From assembly GCA_002737705.1 (NCBI GenBank), contig NSIM01000007.1, positions 1 through 64,000 on the forward strand: 64,000 bases of DNA. The letters run 5' to 3'. Positions 996 to 30,330 of the stretch are shown here, in pieces. The notes below the pieces were generated by a model. That model searched no databases. It was not told where the DNA came from and saw only the letters and a list, made by a program, of their open reading frames with translations. The first letter of the stretch is position 1. Every line of letters starts with the position of its first letter. This stretch comes from Flavobacteriales bacterium (GTDB lineage: Bacteria; Bacteroidota; Bacteroidia; NS11-12g; UBA955). The translations under genes and the position numbers were made by a program.

Positions 996-3113
996 ATGAA
1001 AAAAATTGTCTTTGTATCTTTTTTATTTTTCCTATCAGCCGCTGGCAGCGCAAAATGCAATCTGCCAAAAGGGTGGTCTCAAAGCAATAGCTCCTGCTAC
1101 GTGTTCAATTTTGACGGCTATAAAGTGAATGATTCTAGTAGTTCCAATTCATGCATAAAGTATTATTGGGATTTTGGCGACAAAACCACTGCACACGGAA
1201 AAACAACCAAACACCAATACCTAAAAAATGGAACTTATACAGTATGCATGAAAGTTTGGGACAGCTGTAATAATTGTGATACCAGCATTTGTAAAACCCT
1301 TACAATCGCAAATTGTGATTGTGATTTAAAGACAGAATTTTCGTGGAGCAACGACTGCAAAAAAGTAAAATTTATTGCCCATTCAAACCAGAAAACCGCA
1401 ACATACACCTGGAATTTTGGAGATAAAACGGAAGGAAGAGGGGCTGATCCAATACATACATACTTGTCTGAAGGCGTTTACAAAGTATGTCTCAAAGCAA
1501 GTTGGACAGACGCCAACGGGAAAGTTTGCTCTGTGTATTACTGCAAAGAAATTACCGTCAAATGTGGCAATCCTTGCGAACTAAAAGGAGATTTTACCTG
1601 GGGAGTAAGCAGCGGAGACAATAAAATTCGGTTTAAAGGAAGTAGTAATGCGGGATATACCTATGAATGGAGTTTCGGTGACGGAAAAACAGGCAAAGGA
1701 ATAAACCCCTATCACGAATATGCGAAAGCGGGAACCTATGAAGTATGCTTAACAATCATCAATAAAACCGGAAAATGCAAAGTAAAAATTTGCAAAAAAA
1801 TTACGGTTGGCAACCCCTGCGGACTCCTTGGATCTTTTACATTTAAGAAAACCAATGACAGCACTTGGAAATTTTATGTTGTTTCCAACGGCCCATATGG
1901 CACTACCTATTCATGGTCCTGGGGCGATGGCACAATGTCATCAGGAAAAGACGCCGCCCACACATATAAAAAGTCGGGCATCTATGAAATTTGTGTAAAA
2001 ATTTACAATCCATCAAAAAAGTGTTATCTGTATATATGCAAAAAAGTAGAAATCTCAGTTCCAACCCATTCTAAAAAATGCACTTGGACGGGTCATTTGG
2101 GTTTGGGTTATTCCTATGATTGCAATAAATACTTTTTTGAAATGAATTATTTAACTGACTCGTGTATCCGTTACCAAATAAGTGTGTACAATTTTAAAAC
2201 AGGAAAAACAACCCCATTGACTGCTGGCAGAACTGGAAATTATGTATTTTCAGATACTGGGAAATATAAAATTATAGGAAAGTATAGCAATGTGTGTACA
2301 GGGTGTGATACGCTGTTATATAGAATCTTTACCGTAGGTTGTGAGCCCTTTGTTGGCAAATGCAACTGGGCAGCGAAAGGGGTAAGTTTTGGCTATACCA
2401 ACAAATGCAATGTTTTCACATTCGAAGGCAAAAACCTGAATTCCCCCTGCATCAAATACAAAATATCTGTTGGCAGCATCAAATACTATAACCGCTCGGC
2501 AACGCATACTTTTTCTGCCAAAGGCACATATACTGTTTGCATATTTTACTATGATTCCTGCAATAAATGCGATACAAGCATTTGTAAAACCCTTGTCGTT
2601 AATTGTATTCCTTGCCCTGCAATTGCCAAATTCCAGGTCGATAGTGTTTCGAGCAATGGAAAAATGTATGTAAAAAATACCAGTACTGGATCGTATAAGT
2701 ATAGTTGGAGTTTTAGTGACAGTTCTGCCAATAGCAAGGACAAAACACCCATTCACCAATTTGCCAAATCGGGAACCTTTTTGGTTTGCTTAACAGCCTA
2801 TGACAGCTCAGCCCTTTGCTCAACAACCTATTGTCTTGAAGTAAAAGTCGTTCGCAGCCGTTCTGCAACCCAATTTATGGGTTATATCAGAAAACCCATC
2901 TACCCCAGTCCAACTGATTTGGGTTTCTATATTCCACTCGGGGAAGGCAATTCATCGTACCGGGTATTCGGATCACAAGGACAATTGATGGGCAGTGGAA
3001 ACGGCACTAATTTGGTTTACATTGAAACAAAAAATTGGGCTGAAGGCTTCTATAAAATTGAGACCGTACACGGCAATACCCGCAATACCCAGAGTATAGT
3101 CGTTGTGCATTAA
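996..3113 (+). CDS. Secreted cysteine-rich PKD-repeat protein with probable T9SS tail
   Basis: A 705-residue exported protein. A signal peptide (residues 1-19) is followed by seven PKD-like modules at about 31-104, 108-189, 194-271, 275-355, 362-448, 456-536 and 540-619. Modules 1-4 keep the PKD core (YYWDFGDK, YTWNFGDK, YEWSFGDG, YSWSWGDG, each followed by HxY and GxYxVC). Modules 5 and 6 are degenerate. Nearly every module has cysteines in the last strands (for example DSCNNCDTSIC), suggesting disulfides. The C-terminal 70 residues (YPSPTDLGFYIP, then a GFYKIET strand) resemble a type A T9SS sorting domain without the usual YPNP. PKD domains are typical of surface adhesins and carbohydrate-binding proteins. 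No enzyme domain is visible, so a structural or adhesive role is inferred. Confidence 0.8.
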   Translation: MKKIVFVSFLFFLSAAGSAKCNLPKGWSQSNSSCYVFNFDGYKVNDSSSSNSCIKYYWDFGDKTTAHGKTTKHQYLKNGTYTVCMKVWDSCNNCDTSICKTLTIANCDCDLKTEFSWSNDCKKVKFIAHSNQKTATYTWNFGDKTEGRGADPIHTYLSEGVYKVCLKASWTDANGKVCSVYYCKEITVKCGNPCELKGDFTWGVSSGDNKIRFKGSSNAGYTYEWSFGDGKTGKGINPYHEYAKAGTYEVCLTIINKTGKCKVKICKKITVGNPCGLLGSFTFKKTNDSTWKFYVVSNGPYGTTYSWSWGDGTMSSGKDAAHTYKKSGIYEICVKIYNPSKKCYLYICKKVEISVPTHSKKCTWTGHLGLGYSYDCNKYFFEMNYLTDSCIRYQISVYNFKTGKTTPLTAGRTGNYVFSDTGKYKIIGKYSNVCTGCDTLLYRIFTVGCEPFVGKCNWAAKGVSFGYTNKCNVFTFEGKNLNSPCIKYKISVGSIKYYNRSATHTFSAKGTYTVCIFYYDSCNKCDTSICKTLVVNCIPCPAIAKFQVDSVSSNGKMYVKNTSTGSYKYSWSFSDSSANSKDKTPIHQFAKSGTFLVCLTAYDSSALCSTTYCLEVKVVRSRSATQFMGYIRKPIYPSPTDLGFYIPLGEGNSSYRVFGSQGQLMGSGNGTNLVYIETKNWAEGFYKIETVHGNTRNTQSIVVVH

Positions 3114-3240
3114 AGCAAATTTATGGGCTTCTGTGGCACCTGCTCAAAATTGAATTTAGGAGCTCAGTGGAGATACCGATGGTTTGAGTTTCTTGTTTGC
3201 TTACCCACTTAATATCAAAAAAACAGTCATTATAGATAGT

Positions 3241-4704
3241 ATGAAACAAAAAATATTGGGTTTAATGATGGGAATATTCGGTTTTGGATTGTCTGCAATG
3301 GCCCAAAATCCCATTCCAAATGCCTCATTTGATGATTGGGAATCTTTGTCCTTCAAAGCCCCAACAAAATGGATGTTAATCGGTAAAGGATTGCTTGATT
3401 CATCCAAGACTATGCCAAATAACCAAGGCCTCCGACTATTCAATGATTTTAATTCTCAAACCATCAGCTATGCTCTTCAAGTAGGGCTCAATTACCCTGA
3501 TATTTTGACTGGTGGATTCCCAATTTCTGGCACACCCACATCCATCAAAATTAATTACAATTCAGCATACCTTGGAAGTGATACTGCAACAATTATAGTG
3601 GGTTTTACCAAGGGCATTGATGGTGTTCCGATCATTTTACAACAGTTCGATATTTTGCCGGATGCACCGGGTTCTGGAGACAAGCAACTCACAATTCCAC
3701 TTACATATTCGCATCCCACCCTGTCACTGTCTGCTGATTCGGGTTTTGTGTATATTGTGAGCAGTCAAGGGCGAGGAAAACCCAATGGGAACGGGTCTAT
3801 AGCAATCTATGATTTGGGTTTTGTAGATGGAACAACCGCAACTACTGCCAATCTCGATTTCGAAACATGGGGAGGATTTTCGGTTATGAAACCCAAAAGT
3901 TGGTATACCTCAACAGATGCCTTTGAAGAAAAAATGGGCAAATTATACGATACAAAAAAAACCTTTACTTCACAAAGCAATGATGCCCGTTCTGGATCAG
4001 CGATTGTATTACAGGCTCAATCTACAGGATTAAGCACAACAGGCAATAATTGGATACCCGCTTGGATGATTACCCAGAATACCAATTCCCCCTTCGCAGC
4101 CATGGATATGCCATCTTTTACGATCAACCAACGCTACGAAAGCATGCGTGGCTATTGGAAAGGAAATTTGGTTGCGGGCGACAGGGTAACGGTAATCGTA
4201 AATTTCTTTCATACCGACACCTTGGTTGGATCAGCCATTTTTTCTCAAAATTCTGATGTACTTGTTCCTTCAAGCTACTCATTATTTACCGAAAATGTAG
4301 TATGGGATTCTCGATTCACATTGATACCCACCAAGGCAACTGTCGGCGTGTTTTTGTCTGACTCTACTTTCACTGAGGCAAGCAATGCCTCTAGTAAAAT
4401 CTTTCTTGACGATTTGTCTTTAGAAACATATGCCGCCAAGATTCCCCATTTGGCAAAATCTGCTGTATCTGTTTCTGTATACCCCAACCCGAGCAAAGGA
4501 AATGTTAATCTGGTTTCTGCCAAAACAATAAAACACCTACTTGTAATAGACCGACAAGGAAAAATCGTATACCGTGCTAACCACGTCGATGCGCTTAGAC
4601 ACGCATTTCAATTGCCTGAAAACCAATTGGGTTTTGGAGTGTATTGGATTAAGATAGAGGGTGACGATTTGAGTGAAACCCATAGTATTGTATTCCAGCC
4701 CTGA
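3241..4704 (+). CDS. T9SS-secreted protein with two lectin-like modules
   Basis: 487 residues from the ATG at 3241. An in-frame TTG at 3184 exists, but the signal peptide (MKQKILGLMMGIFGFGLSAMAQ) fixes the ATG as start. The mature part has two related modules, opening with NASFDDWE...APTKWM and NLDFETWG...KPKSWY, a pattern seen in Bacteroidota surface proteins with jelly-roll or PCMD-like carbohydrate-associated domains. The C-terminus (VSVYPNPSKGNV ... GKIVYRA ... FGVYWIKIEG) is a canonical type A T9SS sorting domain, so the protein should cross the outer membrane and be anchored or released. It lies 127 bp after the PKD gene on the same strand. The ligand is unknown. Confidence 0.8.
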   Translation: MKQKILGLMMGIFGFGLSAMAQNPIPNASFDDWESLSFKAPTKWMLIGKGLLDSSKTMPNNQGLRLFNDFNSQTISYALQVGLNYPDILTGGFPISGTPTSIKINYNSAYLGSDTATIIVGFTKGIDGVPIILQQFDILPDAPGSGDKQLTIPLTYSHPTLSLSADSGFVYIVSSQGRGKPNGNGSIAIYDLGFVDGTTATTANLDFETWGGFSVMKPKSWYTSTDAFEEKMGKLYDTKKTFTSQSNDARSGSAIVLQAQSTGLSTTGNNWIPAWMITQNTNSPFAAMDMPSFTINQRYESMRGYWKGNLVAGDRVTVIVNFFHTDTLVGSAIFSQNSDVLVPSSYSLFTENVVWDSRFTLIPTKATVGVFLSDSTFTEASNASSKIFLDDLSLETYAAKIPHLAKSAVSVSVYPNPSKGNVNLVSAKTIKHLLVIDRQGKIVYRANHVDALRHAFQLPENQLGFGVYWIKIEGDDLSETHSIVFQP

Positions 4705-13386: not shown

Positions 13387-14424
13387 CTATGGCTGTAATG
13401 GAACAAAAAACGAAGGATTGACACCCGTAGCGAACCGTTGCATTAAAGCGCCACTCTTTGCATTGACCACAGAAACTTCCCCATTGCTCACATAATCTTT
13501 CGCATCTGCTATGTATAAACAACTGTCTCTGGGGTTAAGATTGAATCCATAAATAAGTTTTGGACCGCGGTAAAAAACCGATGCCTCTGCCAGCGATACT
13601 GCACTTACCGGCATTCTCCAAATGGCGTTTTGATACAAAAAAAACAGATCTCTTCCATCCAAAGACAACTCGATTTTCCCAAACGATTTCTTTTCTGCAT
13701 TAAAATATCTAGTGCGCGAAAAATCTGACACTGAAAATTTCTGCATTGAACTTTTCCCAACAGCCGACGAAACAACCCAAAGAGAACTGCTTGCGTCGAC
13801 AGCCAGAAACATGGAGCCCGTGTCTGTATAAATTGTATGCTTTAGCATAAATGAATTGGGGTCGAATAACAATACTTTCCCATTATAGGAGGCAACTGCC
13901 ACGAATTGGTTCCATTTCACCAACTGCTCGGTATACGCGTCAACAAGAAGTTCTTTTTCCAAACTTAATGAAGCTGTATCGAGAACCGATATGGTATTAG
14001 AATATAGATCCGTTATCCAAAGATGGCGGCCCACAGGCAATATGAATCGCGGGGATTTGAGGTGTGCGTTAATTTTGGTTTGTTGTAGCGTCTTGGGATT
14101 GATTCCCAACACCTTGCCACTGTTGTTTATACTCAAATACAGGGTATTTGCATACAATACGCCATTTTGAAGCACATCACCCAGGGGTTTTTTATTGACT
14201 TGCTCATACGCATTGGCCCAATTGATATTTGAATCGGGATGATAGATATCCAAACGCGCATTGTTCCACATAAAATTTCCCTCACACAAAACAGCCACCC
14301 GGTTGCCTTGAATTCCGGAAATCGCCAATGGTTTTATAATAGTGGGTTCACAAGCGGAAAAAAAACATGCCGCAAGCAGTAATCCAGGGAAAATAAAAAC
14401 GAAATACTGCTTACAAAAACGCAT
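13387..14424 (-). CDS. BtuG-like beta-propeller lipoprotein, surface B12 binding (predicted)
   Basis: 345 residues. The signal peptide ends in a lipobox-like region (LLLAAC, then FFSAC at Cys25), so a lipoprotein is likely. The rest consists of repeats of about 40 residues in the style of YncE/DUF5074 seven-bladed propellers (LYLSINNSGKVLGINPKTLQ, LWITDLYSNTISVLDTASL, FVAVASYNGKVLLFDPNS). BtuG, a propeller lipoprotein capping the BtuB receptor, is known from Bacteroides to bind cobalamin with extreme affinity. The position here, last in a riboswitch-controlled operon after BtuB-like and BtuH-like genes, makes that role likely. Start 11 bp after the DUF4465 gene. The propeller type is fairly sure; B12 binding is inferred from context. 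Confidence 0.75.
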   Translation of the reverse strand: MRFCKQYFVFIFPGLLLAACFFSACEPTIIKPLAISGIQGNRVAVLCEGNFMWNNARLDIYHPDSNINWANAYEQVNKKPLGDVLQNGVLYANTLYLSINNSGKVLGINPKTLQQTKINAHLKSPRFILPVGRHLWITDLYSNTISVLDTASLSLEKELLVDAYTEQLVKWNQFVAVASYNGKVLLFDPNSFMLKHTIYTDTGSMFLAVDASSSLWVVSSAVGKSSMQKFSVSDFSRTRYFNAEKKSFGKIELSLDGRDLFFLYQNAIWRMPVSAVSLAEASVFYRGPKLIYGFNLNPRDSCLYIADAKDYVSNGEVSVVNAKSGALMQRFATGVNPSFFVPLQP

Positions 14425-14435
14425 TGCTTACCAAA

Positions 14436-15473
14436 TTATTGTTTAACAATTTCACATGTTTCAATTCCAATGCTCGTGATTATTTTTACCCTATACACAC
14501 CCATGGCCCAATCGGAAATAACAATATCAAATGCCTTCCTATTGAGGCCAGCTTCTAAATACACCCGTTTGCCCAAGACATCCACAATTTCTATTTTATC
14601 CATATTGCCAGTCGTTTCCACGCGCACTTTATCTTTCGCAGGATTTGGATAAGATAAGGCGAGCATTTTTGGAATGGAAACCACCTTTACCCAAAGATCT
14701 GCTCCAACTTCATCAATCGCAAAAAATCCAGGTGTATTCATTCCATATGAACCACTGTCTGAGCTCTGTAATTCGAAGACTGTACTATCTATGGGGCCCA
14801 ATTGTCCCACACCCTGCTTTGCGCAAAATACCGTTTGCCATGAATCCAAAATATAATCTTTGGAATTGTCTGCAAATCTGTAATCTGCGAGAACAACACT
14901 GAAGCGCGACAACAATTTTCCTTTATGGTAAAAACCAATTTTAAGAACAAAACTGTCGGCATCATTTCCAGAAAGTCCACCAAATTTCTTTGCAATTGCA
15001 TCACCATTTTTCATGCTATTGTAGGCATATGTTGTATTGGCAATTTTTAGATTAGAAAAGAACCCCTTTAATGGATTCGTTGGCGATAGAATATATGATT
15101 TGTTCATACCCACAGCAAATGTTGTTCCCTTGTATTTGCCATTTATACCTTTTTCTGAACCATAACCTGGCTTCGCGCAATACAAATGTTTCGAAAAATC
15201 CGAATTGCCCAAAGACCCATCAATTTTTTTGGATATAGCCCAACCCGCAGCCCAATAACCACCATAAGAGGTATCCCATAAGATTGGCATAGTAGAAACA
15301 AATCCACCACCTTGGGAATGCAATTTAAAAAAGTTCTCCCCCTTGCTGCCATTTATTACCTGCCCAGAGTCTGCTTTGACATATTCAAATCCTTCAAGCA
15401 TTTGGGCACAGATAGCATTCAGGTTTAACAAGGTAAACAAAAAGATCAATGCGTTTTTTTTGGTTGTTTTCAT
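14436..15473 (-). CDS. DUF4465 (BtuH-like) protein with T9SS sorting tail
   Basis: 345 residues from the ATG at 15473, where a signal peptide begins (KKNALIFLFTLLNLNAICAQ). The central domain has DUF4465 features: GFEY, then GGYWAAGWAISKKID, SKHLYCAKPGYG and TFAVG. Members of DUF4465 called BtuH bind vitamin B12 at the cell surface of Bacteroides, where they are lipoproteins. Here there is no lipobox. Instead the C-terminus (LALSYPNPAKDKVRV ... DVLGKRVYLEAG ... MGVYRVKIITS) is a type A T9SS sorting domain. It sits between the BtuB-like receptor (110 bp upstream) and the BtuG-like lipoprotein (11 bp downstream). The longer frame, starting in the btuB stop region, has no signal peptide at its start and is rejected. 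Confidence 0.8.
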   Translation of the reverse strand: MKTTKKNALIFLFTLLNLNAICAQMLEGFEYVKADSGQVINGSKGENFFKLHSQGGGFVSTMPILWDTSYGGYWAAGWAISKKIDGSLGNSDFSKHLYCAKPGYGSEKGINGKYKGTTFAVGMNKSYILSPTNPLKGFFSNLKIANTTYAYNSMKNGDAIAKKFGGLSGNDADSFVLKIGFYHKGKLLSRFSVVLADYRFADNSKDYILDSWQTVFCAKQGVGQLGPIDSTVFELQSSDSGSYGMNTPGFFAIDEVGADLWVKVVSIPKMLALSYPNPAKDKVRVETTGNMDKIEIVDVLGKRVYLEAGLNRKAFDIVISDWAMGVYRVKIITSIGIETCEIVKQ

Positions 15474-15583
15474 TTTAGGTTTGTTATAGGTTTTATTTTG
15501 ATTGTCTTTATTATAGGTCTTGGTTTTGTATGGTGTTACTGGGTTTTGCATGATGGGCATTTGAAGAAATGTATTGTCTATAC

Positions 15584-17554
15584 TTATTTCCATTTGAAGA
15601 GCAATCCCAATTTTAGCATCCTACCGGGCATAGGTCTTCCGGGCATATTTATAAATACTGTGTTAAACACATTCAAGGCTTCCAAGTTTATTGACCATCC
15701 ATAGCCTAAATAATTAACCACATCTGGAATCTGGAACTGGATGTTAATTAATTTGTATGAAGGTAAAAATGCCTGGTTATCGGTTTGAATAAATCGTTTG
15801 CCGACATATTGTAGATTGGTGCCAATATTCCACCGTTTTGCCTCTAGGGCAACCCAGAAATTTCCATTCCAATTGGGAACAAAAATTTGCTGGTATGCGT
15901 CGGAATTGGTTGTTTGTCTTACCCGACTGCTCACCCTATCCCAATTCGATTTAAACGCCAAGGCATGGGTTCCAAATTTCCATCGGCTACTGGCTGCCAA
16001 TTGAATCCCAGCGTATTTTCCGCCGCCTTCAAGATTCACAGGATACCAAAAACTGCCATTGGGCACCCACAATATGGGTTGATCCAATGTCCGATAATAC
16101 ACGGTAGCTTCTGTCGAAATAGACCACCGCTTGGTAAAAATTCGCCGCATATCCAAACCCCCTTCTACGCCCCATCCCTTTTCAGGCTTTAGTTCTCGCG
16201 TCATATTCCCTGTAATCCAAAACAAATCATTCAAATTGGGCCTACGGAAACTGTTGTGGGCATTGGCTTTGATACTGATCCATTTCGAAGTCTTGTAGCA
16301 AATTGACAACCCTGCGGTGGGAACCTTTTCATGCCATTCGTAACGGGCATTGAAAACGGCAGACAATGACTCATTTGCCCAATTTATACCCAACAAAGAA
16401 GCAGGCAAGGTTCTATTTGCCCAACCCAAATAGTATTCTGAATTTGCCTTCTGATATTGAATATCTGTTCCCAAAAAACCATTCCAATTGCCCCATTGTT
16501 TGTATATTTCACTCTGAAAATGCAGGGTTTTTGCAAGACTTTTACTTCCAATGACAAGTTTGGGGGTTTCGAAATATTCAATTTCATCTTGTATATAACC
16601 CATGCGATGGGTGGCAGACCAATATTGATTGGGTTGGTATATATATTCTACTACGGACCGAAAATTACCGTCTTCTTGCTTTCCCAATGGCTGAAATGAA
16701 CCCAAGGCAAGTCCCAATTGTCTTTGCATGCTCACCCATTCACTGACTCCTTTTAAATAGTGTTTTCCTTTGCGATAGCCCAATACACCCCGAATCAATC
16801 CTTGCTCACTCCGCGCATTTTCCATTCGGCGCAGGGGAATATCAAGACCCTTGTCAGCGAAGGAAAATGTATTGGAACGATCAAATCGAGCCGCTGTAAC
16901 CGCTAAAAAGCAACGGTTATTTGAAACCCCAAGTTCTGCTCCAAAATTGCGTTCCCCAAAACTACCTTTAGAAAAAAGTATTTTACCACGCGATGTAAAT
17001 TTGTTTTGTGCGCCAAATTGAGCGGAATTTCGCATAAAAATTGTCCCCCCCATACTTCCACTTCCAACGGTTGGGGAATTTCCCCCATCAACCAAAAAAA
17101 GATCGGTATTTCCCCAAGTAAGTAAGGTGTTAAAATCCGTCATCCCCAACATCACATTGTTCACAGGTATACCATTCCAATTGACTTGGGTCTGATTGGC
17201 ATCGGCTCCCCGACGAGAAATTATACTCGAGCCAGTCATTCCATATTGTTTAAAAAATACGCCTTGGTCGTCTAAGGCATCTGTGAGGGATTTATTGTCA
17301 TCCCCAATCTGAATCGTCCGAACAACCCGACCGAGTGTGGCAAAATCCAATCTTTGGGCATGGATATACACGGTATCTAAGGGGTTTAAAGAGGCAGCGC
17401 TTGGCGAAATCAAAATTGGGTCTGAGCCCCCTGTTCTTTGAAAAAAAAGTGGGCTTTGGACAGCCATCGGTTTGTGCTGCAATAAAAAAGTATCCTTTTT
17501 GGGTTCTATCCCCCCAAAAACAGATATTAGCGATATGACGCACAAGGCAAACAT
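15584..17554 (-). CDS. btuB: TonB-dependent cobalamin receptor, BtuB-like
   Basis: 656 residues from the ATG at 17554. An in-frame start at 17689 lies inside the riboswitch and is rejected. A short signal peptide (MFALCVISLISVFGG) is followed by the plug domain (SRRGADANQTQVNWNGIPVN, DGGNSPTVGSGSMGGTIFMRN) and a beta-barrel rich in alternating aromatic strands, ending in a C-terminal strand with LGLLFKWK. There is no carboxypeptidase-like N-terminal domain, unlike SusC-type receptors and like BtuB. Its control by a cobalamin riboswitch and the BtuH/BtuG-like genes downstream point to vitamin B12 or corrinoid uptake across the outer membrane. The TonB box was not identified. The BtuCDF inner-membrane transporter is not in this window. 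Confidence 0.85.
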   Translation of the reverse strand: MFALCVISLISVFGGIEPKKDTFLLQHKPMAVQSPLFFQRTGGSDPILISPSAASLNPLDTVYIHAQRLDFATLGRVVRTIQIGDDNKSLTDALDDQGVFFKQYGMTGSSIISRRGADANQTQVNWNGIPVNNVMLGMTDFNTLLTWGNTDLFLVDGGNSPTVGSGSMGGTIFMRNSAQFGAQNKFTSRGKILFSKGSFGERNFGAELGVSNNRCFLAVTAARFDRSNTFSFADKGLDIPLRRMENARSEQGLIRGVLGYRKGKHYLKGVSEWVSMQRQLGLALGSFQPLGKQEDGNFRSVVEYIYQPNQYWSATHRMGYIQDEIEYFETPKLVIGSKSLAKTLHFQSEIYKQWGNWNGFLGTDIQYQKANSEYYLGWANRTLPASLLGINWANESLSAVFNARYEWHEKVPTAGLSICYKTSKWISIKANAHNSFRRPNLNDLFWITGNMTRELKPEKGWGVEGGLDMRRIFTKRWSISTEATVYYRTLDQPILWVPNGSFWYPVNLEGGGKYAGIQLAASSRWKFGTHALAFKSNWDRVSSRVRQTTNSDAYQQIFVPNWNGNFWVALEAKRWNIGTNLQYVGKRFIQTDNQAFLPSYKLINIQFQIPDVVNYLGYGWSINLEALNVFNTVFINMPGRPMPGRMLKLGLLFKWK

Positions 17555-17654
17555 AGTTTTGCATTGGCAAACAAACGCGAATGAAACGGTTAAAGGAAAC
17601 TGGACGATGGCCTGTCCTATTCCTCTCCGCGCCTCTATTCCCGAAAGCGTGCAC

Positions 17655-17852
17655 TGGGTGTTATTAGGCAGGTCTTCTGACTTCTCCACCTTAGGCGCCT
17701 TCCCATTTCTTGAGAAATAGTGGCTTAGATGCCTAAAATATAAACCAACACTGGGGTTGATTTGGAGTTACAGCTGCGGGTACAGTCTCGGTTTTACACC
17801 GAAGTTCCCTTTTCATCGAAGTGGATTTCCTTTCCACATTCGAACCTAGCAA
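17655..17852 (-). ncRNA. Cobalamin riboswitch
   Basis: On the minus strand the conserved blocks occur in order: a GGTTCGAATGTGG stem, AAAAGGGAACTTCGGTG, ACTGTACCCGCAGCTGTAA, the GCCACT box (near 17717-17722), GGGAAGGCGCC, and AAGTCAGAAGACCTGCCT (17666-17683). These are the core and B12-box sequences of the adenosylcobalamin/cobalamin aptamer. About 100 nt separate the aptamer from the btuB ATG. The expression platform could not be resolved by eye. By family knowledge, cobalamin binding lowers expression of the downstream uptake genes. Confidence 0.95.
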
Positions 17853-17857
17853 CGATG

Positions 17858-17865
17858 CAAATATA
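17858..17865 (-). promoter_or_regulatory. Candidate -7 box of the B12 operon
   Basis: TATATTTG followed by CATC on the minus strand matches TAnnTTTG and lies just upstream of the riboswitch, so transcription would begin at its first stem. No TTG is found at the expected -33. Confidence 0.5.
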
Positions 17866-21214: not shown

Positions 21215-23629
21215 TTAAAGATTAACAATCAATTTCAGGCTTATGTTTCTGCCCATATTAAAAACTCCGTTTCTGCCCGTCAATGGATTTTGAGGTGCAT
21301 ATTTCAATCTGCTTAAATGACTTTGGTATGCAACGTCAGCTAAGTTTTCTGCACTAATATAAATACTCATAAAGTTGCTACGGTTGAGCGCTTTTACGTT
21401 AGCACCAAGTCCCGCACTCAACAATGTATATGACGGAGTTCCAGACTCCGTACCATACGCACTGAAAAATTTGTCCTGGTGAAAATAGTAGTCCATTCCA
21501 AATTTTATATACGCATTTGTCAAATTTTTACCCACCTTTTTAAACTGTGCTTTCAATTCCCCTCTGTATTTAGGTGCAGGAATAAATGGTAAATACTTTG
21601 TGCTGTCGGATTGCTTGTTCTGTGTTGCTTGAACAAAAGAAAATGCGTTTTCAATATGCAACCAGTCAAATGGGTGTGGATGAATATCTAAATAAATCTC
21701 TCCACCAATTAATGTTGCATTCCCATGCGTAAACTTGAAAGCTGGTGTGGGGTCGGATGGGTCGGTTATTGAGTCGCCACCAAATGCACTTGTCAGTTTT
21801 TCTGAAAAAATATAATTTGAAATAAAGTTTGCAAATGGCGTAAATTCAAACGTAACGTGGTCGGAATTTAAAAAATACGCAAGGTCTATTTGATGGCTTA
21901 CTTCCGATTTCAAATCTGCATTACCATACTCGTATCTCAATGTTCCTTCGTGTTTACCATTTGATGAAATTTCGGCAATGTTGGGTGCTCTGAATCCTCT
22001 TGATAAATTAAACTTAATAGTAGATATCTTATTGATTTGATATGACAGTCCAATGCTTCCTGAATAGCTGTTGTAGTTTTTTGTAAAAGGCCTAAATTTT
22101 AAATTTGTTGTACTATCCTCAATGCTTACTGGATTTCCCAAACTGTCCAAAATTAATTGCTTTGTGCTTATGTTTCTGTTGTCAAAACGAAAGCCACCAG
22201 ATACAGTAAGTTTTTTAAAGGTTTTTTGTGTAAATACAAAACCACCAATATCAAAGAGATTGTATTCAGGAATTAAAAATTCCAAACCTTTATTTGCATT
22301 ACTTTGTTGCATACCGCTTACACCTGCCGAAGTTTCCCAACCTTTTATTTCAGCCAAATTGTATCTCAAATTGTAGTTGATAGTATTTAAGTCAAAGAAC
22401 AAGGCCTTGTCATTTGGGTTTAAAACATCCCCAAATTCTTTTCTCTTATTATTTTGGTATCCTAAATCTAAATTGATAGTTCCCTTTCTAAGTATGAAAT
22501 AGTTGTTTGTCAGCACTCTTAAATGGTTGACTTCTTGATGTGGTAAGCCAATTTTATAGCCGTTTAAATCCTTTGCAGTTGCTGATAATTCTGTTATCAA
22601 ACCCTTGCCGTCTGGAGTTGCGAAAATAAATCTGCCTAAACTGTCTCTATCTCCTTCAACCATATTTAAGGTGGTGTTGAACGTGCTTAAATTCAAGTGA
22701 GAATAACCCCACTTTTTGGTTACTCCTAAAAACAAACTTCCATTATATTCTTGAAAACCTGAATTGTAAACTTTGCCGTCATATTGATTTTGATAATTTC
22801 CTACAAATTTATTGCTGAACCGACCCAGCCATTGAAACCCATTTTTATTTCCTGCATTTGATAGTGAATAACCGATTAAATTATTATTGCTTTGGTAGTT
22901 TGAAATAAATTGCGTTTTGATTTGTCCTAATGGCGGTGCTTTTGGAGAAATAAAATTTAAAACGCCTGCTATTCCGTCCGAACCATACAACAAACTACCG
23001 GGTCCCCGAACAATTTCAATTCTATCAATAGAATATTCATCAATTTCAATTCCGTGTTCATCACCCCATTGTTGACCTTCCTGACGAATACCATTGTAAA
23101 GAGAAATAACTCTATTGTACCCCAATCCTCTAATGATTGGTTTGGATATTCCTGCACCCGTTGTAATTTGGTTAACACCTTGAACATTTTTTAAAGCGTC
23201 AATTAAATTTGTAGAACTGTTTTGATTGAGAACCTCAACATCAAAAGGTTTAATGATTAACGGACTTAATTTTAATTCGGTAGAACGGGAAACGGCTGTA
23301 ACTAAAACTTCGTTCCATTCCGATACAGATTGACTGATTAGAAAATCTACAACAGTGTCTTTGCTGATGTAAATACGTTCGACCCTTTTTTTATAACCGA
23401 TAAAGCTTATTTCAAAAAGATAAGTTCCTATTTTGATGTTTTCTAACCTGTAGTTTCCTTCTTTGTCTGAAGTTGCACCAGTTTTTAGGTCGCTAACATA
23501 TATTGATACACCTGTTAAAATTTCTTTTGTTTTTTCGTCTTTGATGTTACCCGAAATTTTATTTTGAGCAACGATGGTTTGAATTGCGAAAACGAACGCA
23601 AGTGTTGTATAAATGAATTTTGGTTTCAT
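21215..23629 (-). CDS. TonB-dependent receptor with carboxypeptidase-like N-domain, probable metal uptake
   Basis: 804 residues. It has a signal peptide, a CarboxypepD_reg-like domain at 22-110 (ISGNIKDEKTKEILTGVSIYVSD...NYRLENIKIGTYLFEISFIGYKK), a plug (VQGVNQITTGAGISKPIIRGLGYNRV, GSLLYGSDGIAGVLNF) and a barrel ending with NISLKLIVNL. The His-containing loops (EHGIEIDEYSIDRIE, DIHPHPFDWLHIENAF, IPAPKYRGELK) resemble zinc/copper-type receptors such as ZnuD-like proteins, but the substrate is an inference. The gene is visibly richer in A/T than neighbours. Directly upstream is a small Cys/His-rich exported protein, and both lie between short repeats and an IS30 remnant, so acquisition by transfer is plausible. 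Confidence 0.85.
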   Translation of the reverse strand: MKPKFIYTTLAFVFAIQTIVAQNKISGNIKDEKTKEILTGVSIYVSDLKTGATSDKEGNYRLENIKIGTYLFEISFIGYKKRVERIYISKDTVVDFLISQSVSEWNEVLVTAVSRSTELKLSPLIIKPFDVEVLNQNSSTNLIDALKNVQGVNQITTGAGISKPIIRGLGYNRVISLYNGIRQEGQQWGDEHGIEIDEYSIDRIEIVRGPGSLLYGSDGIAGVLNFISPKAPPLGQIKTQFISNYQSNNNLIGYSLSNAGNKNGFQWLGRFSNKFVGNYQNQYDGKVYNSGFQEYNGSLFLGVTKKWGYSHLNLSTFNTTLNMVEGDRDSLGRFIFATPDGKGLITELSATAKDLNGYKIGLPHQEVNHLRVLTNNYFILRKGTINLDLGYQNNKRKEFGDVLNPNDKALFFDLNTINYNLRYNLAEIKGWETSAGVSGMQQSNANKGLEFLIPEYNLFDIGGFVFTQKTFKKLTVSGGFRFDNRNISTKQLILDSLGNPVSIEDSTTNLKFRPFTKNYNSYSGSIGLSYQINKISTIKFNLSRGFRAPNIAEISSNGKHEGTLRYEYGNADLKSEVSHQIDLAYFLNSDHVTFEFTPFANFISNYIFSEKLTSAFGGDSITDPSDPTPAFKFTHGNATLIGGEIYLDIHPHPFDWLHIENAFSFVQATQNKQSDSTKYLPFIPAPKYRGELKAQFKKVGKNLTNAYIKFGMDYYFHQDKFFSAYGTESGTPSYTLLSAGLGANVKALNRSNFMSIYISAENLADVAYQSHLSRLKYAPQNPLTGRNGVFNMGRNISLKLIVNL

Positions 23630-23734
23630 GTTGATATTTTTAATGATAAAAATGATAGTAGATATAAATGACTGTAAGAGACAAAAAAATTGTCCTTACA
23701 CAACTTAAAAGCACCAAACTTAAATGGCTAAAGA

Positions 23735-24103
23735 TTAAACCGAAGGAGGACCTCTGTTAGCAAAATTAGAGGGGGCTTGATGACAATATTTTTTGGAAAT
23801 TTGTAAATAGCTTCCACTGATTGGGTAGCTGAAATATTTATTTACGCGTATTTGGACGTCATGTGTAGAAATAGTATGATTATCACAAAGCCAGCATTTT
23901 TCGTTCGCTTTGGCAACATGTGTCTTGTGGGTGCAATTTCCATCTTTGTAAGAGAAGAAAACAGATTTTTTGCAATCTGTTGACTTTTTGCATGTGGCTG
24001 TATCTAACTTGTGGTGATGAAATACAATACCGGGATGAATACTGAACAAGTATACCAGTAAAAGCATAAATGCTTTCCATTGAATACGGTGCAGTTTCTT
24101 CAT
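23735..24103 (-). CDS. Small exported Cys/His-rich protein
   Basis: 122 residues: an N-terminal hydrophobic segment (WKAFMLLLVYLFSIHPGIVFHHH), then a chain of potential metal ligands (HHHK, TCKKSTDCKKS, GNCTHKTH, KCWLCDNH) and a C-terminal KKYCHQAPSNF. It is not a family I can name. Similar small proteins accompany metal-related TonB receptors in Bacteroidota, and this one is 105 bp upstream of such a receptor on the same strand. A role as a periplasmic or membrane-bound metal-binding partner is inferred. It could equally be a membrane protein of unknown role. Confidence 0.6.
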   Translation of the reverse strand: MKKLHRIQWKAFMLLLVYLFSIHPGIVFHHHKLDTATCKKSTDCKKSVFFSYKDGNCTHKTHVAKANEKCWLCDNHTISTHDVQIRVNKYFSYPISGSYLQISKKYCHQAPSNFANRGPPSV

Positions 24104-29267: not shown

Positions 29268-29420
29268 ATGAAAGCCGATACAGCATTCATAGTTTACCAC
29301 GGCAAACCGCAATACCAATTTGCCGCAGGGTTATTGGCAACAATCACCGCTTGTGATTTTTGTATTGAATACGGCATAGAGGGTATACAAACAATGGGTA
29401 TTTTAAACTGTAATGTATAG
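29268..29420 (+). CDS. Possible 50-residue ORF overlapping the queG start
   Basis: ATG at 29268 to TAG at 29418, overlapping the queG start codon (29413) by 8 bp in another frame. The product (KADTAFIVYHGKPQYQFAA...) resembles nothing known. It could be a short upstream ORF that couples translation to queG, or chance. No ribosome-binding site stands out. Confidence 0.2.
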   Translation: MKADTAFIVYHGKPQYQFAAGLLATITACDFCIEYGIEGIQTMGILNCNV

Positions 29421-30330
29421 CGACCGAATCAAACAACTGTCTTACAAACACGGGTTTTTGGCTTGTGGAATTGCAAAAGCAGAAAATCTACCTTTAGCAT
29501 CGCGTCAATTAAAAGATTGGCTCGACATGGGATATCATGGGGAGATGGCTTACCTAGAAAACCATTTTGACAAAAGAACAGATTTACGAAACTTGGTTGA
29601 AGGGGCAAAATCAATACTGTGTTTGGCCTTTAATTATTTTCCAGAACCCCGGAATAAAACAGACTTTAAAATCGCACGCTATGCCTATGGCGATGACTAC
29701 CACATTGTAATTAAAGAAAAATTGTTTGCCTTGATGGCAGATATACAGAATCTAATACCCAGCTTTACTGGAAGGGCTTTTGTCGATAGTGCTCCCGTAA
29801 TGGAAAGACAATGGGCAGAAAGAGCGGGCATAGGGTGGATAGGAAAAAACAGCTTGATTTTGCGCAAAGGTGTGGGCAGTTATTTCTTTTTGGCCGAAAT
29901 CATTTGCACCATAGAACTGGATGCCGACAAGCCCGAAACCGATCATTGTGGAACCTGTACTGCCTGTATCGATGCCTGTCCAACCCAGGCCATTGTTCAA
30001 TCTCAGGTGATAGATTCTAGACTGTGTATTTCATACCAAACAATCGAAAAAAAAGAACCCAGCACATTGTCAATTGAGGAGAGTAAAAGTTGGATTTATG
30101 GTTGTGATATCTGCCAAGAAGTTTGTCCTTGGAACCGCTTTGCCGAGGCAAACAACGAACCGCGATTTTCCCCCCGCGATATTGTTGATTGGTCAGCAGA
30201 AGAATGGCGAATTGCATCGAAAGACCTATCGCTCATCAAAAAACAAATTACAAGAAGTGCAATGGAACGAGCGGGTATTGAAAAAATTGCAAGTCAGGGC
30301 TTTACACAACTTAACGCGACCAAACCCTAG
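29413..30330 (+). CDS. queG: Epoxyqueuosine reductase
   Basis: 305 residues. It performs the last step of queuosine biosynthesis in tRNA, reducing epoxyqueuosine with cobalamin and two [4Fe-4S] clusters. Catalytic Asp125 lies in FVDSAPVMERQWAERAGIGWIGKN. Cluster cysteines are at 179, 182, 185 and 189 (CGTCTACIDACP) and 205, 231, 234 and 238 (CDICQEVCPWN). Slightly shorter than E. coli QueG, without the C-terminal HEAT extension, as is common in Bacteroidota. It needs cobalamin, which gives one use for the B12 uptake operon in this window. Confidence 0.95.
   Translation: MYSDRIKQLSYKHGFLACGIAKAENLPLASRQLKDWLDMGYHGEMAYLENHFDKRTDLRNLVEGAKSILCLAFNYFPEPRNKTDFKIARYAYGDDYHIVIKEKLFALMADIQNLIPSFTGRAFVDSAPVMERQWAERAGIGWIGKNSLILRKGVGSYFFLAEIICTIELDADKPETDHCGTCTACIDACPTQAIVQSQVIDSRLCISYQTIEKKEPSTLSIEESKSWIYGCDICQEVCPWNRFAEANNEPRFSPRDIVDWSAEEWRIASKDLSLIKKQITRSAMERAGIEKIASQGFTQLNATKP

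Follow-up and report, generated by a model that had tools for sequence, protein, structure and literature searches.

Detailed knowledge of how surface proteins capture vitamin B12 (cobalamin) is limited to gut Bacteroides, in which lipoproteins serve as the external binders. In Bacteroides thetaiotaomicron, DUF4465 (IPR027828) is the domain of BtuJ1 and BtuJ2 (BT_1491 and BT_1957), and BtuH, represented by BT_1488, BT_1956 and the C-terminal half of BtuGH, has a fold that differs from it (PMC12751083, PMC13398666, PMC8941943). In vitro B12 binding has been shown for eight divergent members of the DUF4465 family (PMC13398666). F2I9N3 of Fluviicola is a B12-binding member. A survey of the family classed more than 70% of its members as lipoproteins and called the rest periplasmic, with no mention of the type IX secretion system (T9SS) (PMC13398666). 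Here, a minus-strand operon was analyzed in a 64,000-nucleotide stretch of contig NSIM01000007.1 from a Flavobacteriales bacterium (the window). With good confidence, it is read as a riboswitch-controlled B12-capture operon in which the DUF4465 protein, BtuJ, is exported by the T9SS and the propeller protein BtuG is lipid-anchored on the receptor BtuB.

Read on the minus strand from 17865 to 13387, a promoter box is followed by the riboswitch, btuB, the DUF4465 gene (btuJ-like) and btuG:

17858 to 17865, minus strand: Bacteroidota-type -7 promoter box TATATTTG (TAnnTTTG), recognized by sequence at the 5' edge of the riboswitch
17650 to 17864, minus strand: cobalamin riboswitch aptamer RF00174, full length in the covariance model (90.3 bits, gathering threshold 31.5, E 5e-21)
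15584 to 17554, minus strand: btuB, TonB-dependent receptor with a Plug domain and a match to Bacteroides BtuB; reading frame open from GTG 17689
14436 to 15473, minus strand: btuJ-like gene for a DUF4465 protein of 345 residues with a T9SS type A sorting domain, from profiles and a fold match
15405 to 15473, minus strand: predicted signal peptide I of that protein, residues 1-23 (ending LNAICA, then Q), without a lipobox
14706 to 15266, minus strand: DUF4465 domain, residues 70-256 (PF14717 104 bits, cut-off 25)
14439 to 14651, minus strand: T9SS type A C-terminal sorting domain, residues 275-345, from PF18962, TIGR04183 and the predicted structure
13387 to 14424, minus strand: btuG, lipid-anchored beta-propeller (ACFFSAC, then EPT), from BtuG structure matches and a lipobox found by sequence

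The start of the DUF4465 gene was corrected from 15593 to ATG 15473, which lies 110 bases beyond the end of btuB. The start of btuG is 11 bases beyond the end of btuJ.

The C-terminal sorting domain (CTD) of the DUF4465 protein is recognized by two curated models, PF18962 (39.6 bits, cut-off 27) and TIGR04183 (32.5 bits, cut-off 23). An independent tail model built solely on 17 further CTD proteins that this genome encodes gives it 44 bits; together with the two cut-offs passed, this rules out a chance match. Over 71-74 residues, the predicted domain superposes at 1.9 A on the CTDs of RemA and RemZ in complex with the T9SS translocon (for RemA in VIA-align, Z 10.1 and 1.9 A over 74 residues). 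Furthermore, it is conserved among relatives down to 31% overall identity, with the P-N-P, Gly-x-Tyr and Lys-rich end motifs. The genome encodes PorU (962 bits), PorV (382) and PorQ (260) and contains 47 matches to the CTD model, which by these profile scores indicate a T9SS with attachment components. We infer that the DUF4465 protein is a T9SS cargo, for which T9SS-dependent secretion and CTD cleavage are predicted.

The N-terminus is consistent with this route. The protein begins with the signal peptide MKTTKKNALIFLFTLLNLNAICA, followed by Q; the assignment of a signal peptide I without a lipobox was made from the sequence and from comparison with orthologues. C22, the sole cysteine of the signal peptide, is preceded by N-A-I, which is not a lipobox, and stands two residues before the Ala-Gln signal-peptidase I site. 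This context rules out an overlooked lipobox, and the position lacks a cysteine in those orthologues from the genus whose N-terminus is complete. BtuG, encoded in the same operon as btuB, has the lipobox F-F-S-A-C-E (FFSAC/E), its cysteine placed by sequence. A lipoprotein cysteine is found in all 64 full-length BtuG relatives (48 by rule, 16 by eye) and a CTD in none of the 64. Residues 37-340 of the propeller match the BtuG structures 8bmx, 8bmy, 8p97 and 3dsm at 7e-21 to 1.5e-20; Pfam DUF5074 falls just under its cut-off (23 vs 27.2).

An earlier note on this DNA, made from the letters alone, had proposed T9SS-reliant B12 capture by a "BtuH-like" DUF4465 protein with an ordinary signal peptide, no lipobox and a CTD, encoded on one strand with a cobalamin riboswitch, a BtuB-like receptor and a still lipid-anchored BtuG-like propeller. 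The layout, the signal peptide, the CTD and the anchor of BtuG are all borne out. The core idea stands as well, on profile, structure, genome-machinery and comparative evidence; the BtuH name does not. DUF4465 is the BtuJ domain and BtuH is a different one, so the name was wrong. Sequence searches return DUF4465 entries only, BtuJ and DUF4465 folds rank first, and BtuH2 (7BIZ) is not among the structures matched by the window protein, which rules out a BtuH identity.

To examine the fold, an AlphaFold2 model was built from 13 sequences. Its mean pLDDT (predicted local distance difference test) is 56.7; the DUF4465 part is poor and the CTD good (82-92 over the last 70 residues). Foldseek ranks first BtuJ1 and BtuJ2, the cyanocobalamin complex of BtuJ1 (9qpm) and 9hmu, a DUF4465 protein with bound B12. 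In VIA-align, the low-confidence model aligns with BtuJ1-B12 9qpm at Z 11.8 and 3.3 A over 187 residues and with BtuJ1 9fct also at Z 11.8, the leading BtuJ1/DUF4465 structures spanning Z 11.8 to 10.8. The predicted fold is the augmented beta-jelly-roll of the family.

Pocket residues were placed by alignment with 9i2l and by the family alignment. Three of the four B12 contacts of BtuJ1 (Tyr146, Asn241, Thr242 and Tyr245) are kept as Tyr149, Asn246 and Thr247, the fourth being Phe250. Similarly, the BtuJ2 pocket residues Tyr199, Asn291 and Thr292 are conserved in the window protein. The phenylalanine lies in the HI loop (window about 14724-14738, minus strand), at the position of the family's most conserved B12-contact tyrosine, described as 97% conserved; in this clade it is mostly Phe in the single-domain members. 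Among full-length proteins, 40 of the 51 CTD members with a single domain have Phe, as do 7 of the 46 domains of tandem CTD members, and the residue is Tyr in all 8 lipoprotein DUF4465 proteins. By analogy with its characterized relatives, the window DUF4465 protein would be expected to bind B12.

The arrangement extends well beyond the window. DUF4465 is present in 77 of 108 genomes of the window's order, compared with 11 in a phylum-wide sample of 392, and the gene order btuB-btuJ-btuG is near constant within the window's family. In the sister family, btuJ usually encodes two DUF4465 domains followed by one CTD. Such tandem BtuJ-like proteins, found at L109, L110, L112-L117 and other sister-family loci, possibly offer two B12 sites per molecule. 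The 87 full-length DUF4465 proteins divide into 74 with a CTD and no lipobox, 8 with a lipobox and no CTD, 1 ambiguous case (L094) and 4 with neither. To judge by these predicted tails, a T9SS-type BtuJ is the rule for the order and not one odd operon.

PorU was found in 17 of 17 further genomes with CTD-type BtuJ and in 3 of 6 with the lipoprotein type. The idea that lipobox or CTD status merely tracks the presence of a T9SS is only half true, lipoprotein DUF4465 proteins occurring both in genomes with PorU (the 3 of 6) and in genomes without it. Two genomes of one genus with lipoprotein DUF4465 (G352 and G427, genus g29) differ in this respect, one with PorU at 1415 bits and the other with none, through T9SS loss or an assembly gap. 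Two Bacteroidales proteins (L057:7791-8618 and L061:1044-1868) have DUF4465 and a signal peptide I, with no lipobox and no recognized CTD; their short tail (VKVVRDGQVVILRGEKAFNILGAEL) resembles the ends of other L057 proteins and is perhaps another sorting tail. In one genome that has the usual operon as well, an 886-residue CTD protein (L105:445-3102) includes a DUF4465 domain as part of a larger architecture of unknown kind.

The receptor contains a Plug domain above the Pfam cut-off, and the best of its three structure matches is Bacteroides BtuB (8p97/8p98, E 4e-22). With the Escherichia-type BtuB model TIGR01779 it scores only 26.3 bits, against an equivalog cut-off of 599.7. Judged by its sequence, the receptor is a Bacteroides-type BtuB. 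The most likely start of btuB is ATG 17554, as a start at the listed GTG would overlap the riboswitch.

Regulation by cobalamin also appears to be shared. A scan of 27 related operons (both families and outliers) found the riboswitch upstream of 26. Of 26 related operons, 18 have a TAnnTTTG box no more than 4 bases away from the 5' boundary of the riboswitch; the chance of such a box anywhere in a 70-base stretch is about 5%. Because the box recurs at this edge, transcription probably begins at the edge of the cobalamin aptamer. Scans for sigma-70-type promoters and terminators gave fewer sites than in shuffled sequences.

By its gene content, the genome has a need for B12 and candidate genes for its import. 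It encodes MetH, methylmalonyl-CoA mutase small domains and an IcmF-like protein, and the QueG that the earlier note had spotted in the window is confirmed at 29413-30330 on the plus strand (TIGR00276, 300 bits). This QueG covers just positions 1-294 of the 337-position family model, its C-terminal part being short. MetE was not found in the genome, and neither was CbiL/CobI; as CbiL/CobI is a single marker, the absence of de novo B12 synthesis is likely rather than proven. A btuF (lipoprotein)-btuC pair at L161:7533-9830 (minus strand), on contig C23 of this genome, includes the sole FecCD permease found. On C23 the pair has no adjacent btuD and no riboswitch.

A second CTD protein accompanies BtuJ in many relatives. 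Its gene stands between btuJ and btuG in Taibaiella soli (L051:8826-9830), in a single genus of the family and in most of the sister family (further counterparts at L077:8781-9782 and L109:9379-10347). The protein, of 320-340 residues, combines a signal peptide with a CTD (PF18962 45.7 at L077 and 23.6 at L109; TIGR04183 43 and 30.9) and has no other Pfam domain. The window's genome has one copy, apart from the operon on C23 (L174:5855-6826, minus strand), and no riboswitch was found at this gene. An iterated search looked strong, but drift may have contributed to it; the assessment is therefore based solely on searches without iteration, run in both directions. The profile of the protein's N-terminal domain matches the BtuH domains of BtuGH fusions (best E 2e-7), one of which, L058, matches 7BIZ at 7e-29. 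In the other direction, a BtuH profile places most of the second CTD proteins directly behind true BtuH (8e-6 to 1.5e-2), with the next unrelated open reading frame at 0.18. The profile of the protein found no BtuH in the PDB, profile-profile comparison with BtuH is weak (probability 10%, P 0.0008) with a shared core of about 40-60 residues, and its structural model (mean pLDDT 48.4) gave no BtuH fold match, the CTD alone being recognized. Because the core is small, the profile-profile signal weak and the model uninformative, kinship with BtuH is suggested with moderate strength.

These results suggest a working scheme for the operon. Gene content and order, the riboswitch, the CTD, the missing lipobox, the presence of a T9SS and the order-wide conservation were computed; B12 binding, export, CTD removal and hand-over follow from what is known of the protein families (PMC12751083, PMC13398666, PMC10404256, PMC10202324). 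At low intracellular cobalamin, the riboswitch would permit expression of btuB, btuJ and btuG. BtuG would be lipidated, flipped to the surface and seated as the lid of BtuB. BtuJ would cross the inner membrane via Sec, after which PorV and the translocon would take up its CTD and PorU would cut it off, leaving mature BtuJ on the surface or released. There it would capture a cobamide and pass it to BtuG/BtuB. TonB-driven transport through BtuB could then deliver it to periplasmic BtuF-BtuC, and the imported cobamide would supply MetH, methylmalonyl-CoA mutase and QueG.

Whether BtuJ stays on the cell is the point at which another account comes closest. After CTD removal it could be released as a diffusible cobamide carrier rather than tethered to the surface, a counterpart of the vesicle-borne BtuJ of B. 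thetaiotaomicron. BtuJ1 and BtuJ2 enable vesicle delivery of B12 to cells and have been likened to siderophores (PMC12751083), and type A cargo can be either released or bound to anionic lipopolysaccharide (A-LPS) after PorU cleavage (PMC10202324). Yet the genome has three components of the attachment module (PorU, PorV and PorQ), so that surface attachment is also possible, and a free carrier in open water would presumably lose its cargo to neighbours; release as the main fate seems the less likely. It is improbable that BtuJ is instead periplasmic and shuttles cobamide from BtuB to BtuF, its C-terminal domain being a degenerate or structural immunoglobulin-like domain. That would agree with the compartment assigned to non-lipoprotein members by the published survey (PMC13398666), but both curated T9SS models are passed, the CTD and its usual motifs persist in relatives to 31% identity, all 17 further CTD-type genomes tested have PorU, and the lipoprotein homologues are surface or vesicle proteins.

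Three points weigh against T9SS-exported, B12-binding BtuJ as the preferred reading. In the domain tree, the CTD proteins are set apart by one weakly supported branch (64 in the Shimodaira-Hasegawa-like approximate likelihood ratio test, SH-aLRT), so the change between CTD and lipobox represents few independent events at most, and the anchor argument rests on long conservation of the CTD and not on repeated gain. The DUF4465 part of the structural model is of low confidence. Finally, with the Tyr245 contact replaced by phenylalanine, affinity or specificity may differ. This loss of the signature HI-loop tyrosine in most single-domain CTD members would also fit recruitment to another ligand, such as a cobamide precursor or another tetrapyrrole, but a cobalamin riboswitch and BtuB/BtuG partners accompany the gene at nearly every locus, the remaining pocket residues are kept and the aromatic ring is retained, which makes another ligand highly improbable.

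Two further features of the window touch on uptake and secretion. A second TonB receptor (21215-24103, minus strand) is nearest to haem and zinc types and is preceded by a small His/Cys-rich exported protein (23735-24103); the pair possibly serves metal uptake. Two adjoining plus-strand genes, 996-3113 and 3184-4704, encode T9SS cargo candidates (CTD 24.2 and 28.5 bits), the first with PKD-like repeats.

The operon and its order-wide counterparts indicate that a B12 binder can go via the T9SS while the lid of the transporter stays lipidated, which would connect the T9SS with competition for vitamins. A full-text literature search found no paper combining DUF4465 and the T9SS, and the papers examined that cover both B12 and the T9SS draw no connection between the two; the T9SS-tagged BtuJ arrangement, found across the order, appears to be unreported. 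It suggests that the published periplasmic reading is wrong for many non-lipoprotein DUF4465 proteins, which by their sorting tails are probably T9SS cargo. The predicted T9SS routing of BtuJ can be tested with existing T9SS mutants. A broader and tentative possibility, less likely than not, is that the peripheral B12-capture proteins of the order (BtuJ and its BtuH-like partner) jointly exchanged their lipid anchors for T9SS export and serve as secreted carriers of cobamides. The T9SS would then double as a vitamin acquisition system, and its loss would mean B12 starvation when B12 is low.

Among known systems, BtuJ1 and BtuJ2 of Bacteroides thetaiotaomicron (BT_1491, BT_1957; 9FCT, 9QPM, 9I2L) are the closest: they share the DUF4465 augmented jelly roll, give the top fold match and, like the window gene, belong to riboswitch-controlled B12 operons and adjoin BtuB/BtuG. 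They differ in being lipoproteins on cells and vesicles, whereas the window protein has a predicted signal peptide I, a T9SS CTD and Phe at the Tyr245 equivalent. The Bacteroides BtuB-BtuG complexes (8P97, 8P98, 8BMX; PMC10404256) likewise pair a TonB receptor with a lipid-anchored propeller lid in one operon under a cobalamin riboswitch; unlike there, btuJ here stands between btuB and btuG, and btuFCD is unlinked (btuF-btuC on C23). BtuH2 (BT_1956, 7BIZ) is likewise an auxiliary B12 capture protein of the same kind of operon, but its fold differs from DUF4465, and the window has no BtuH, the remotely BtuH-like CTD protein being encoded elsewhere in the genome, on C23. To our knowledge, Hbp35 of Porphyromonas gingivalis binds haem and not cobamide, is not a DUF4465 protein and is not encoded in a BtuBG-type operon. 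It is nevertheless the sole precedent found, as a capture protein for a cofactor, haem, that is exported by the T9SS with a type A CTD (PMC10202324).

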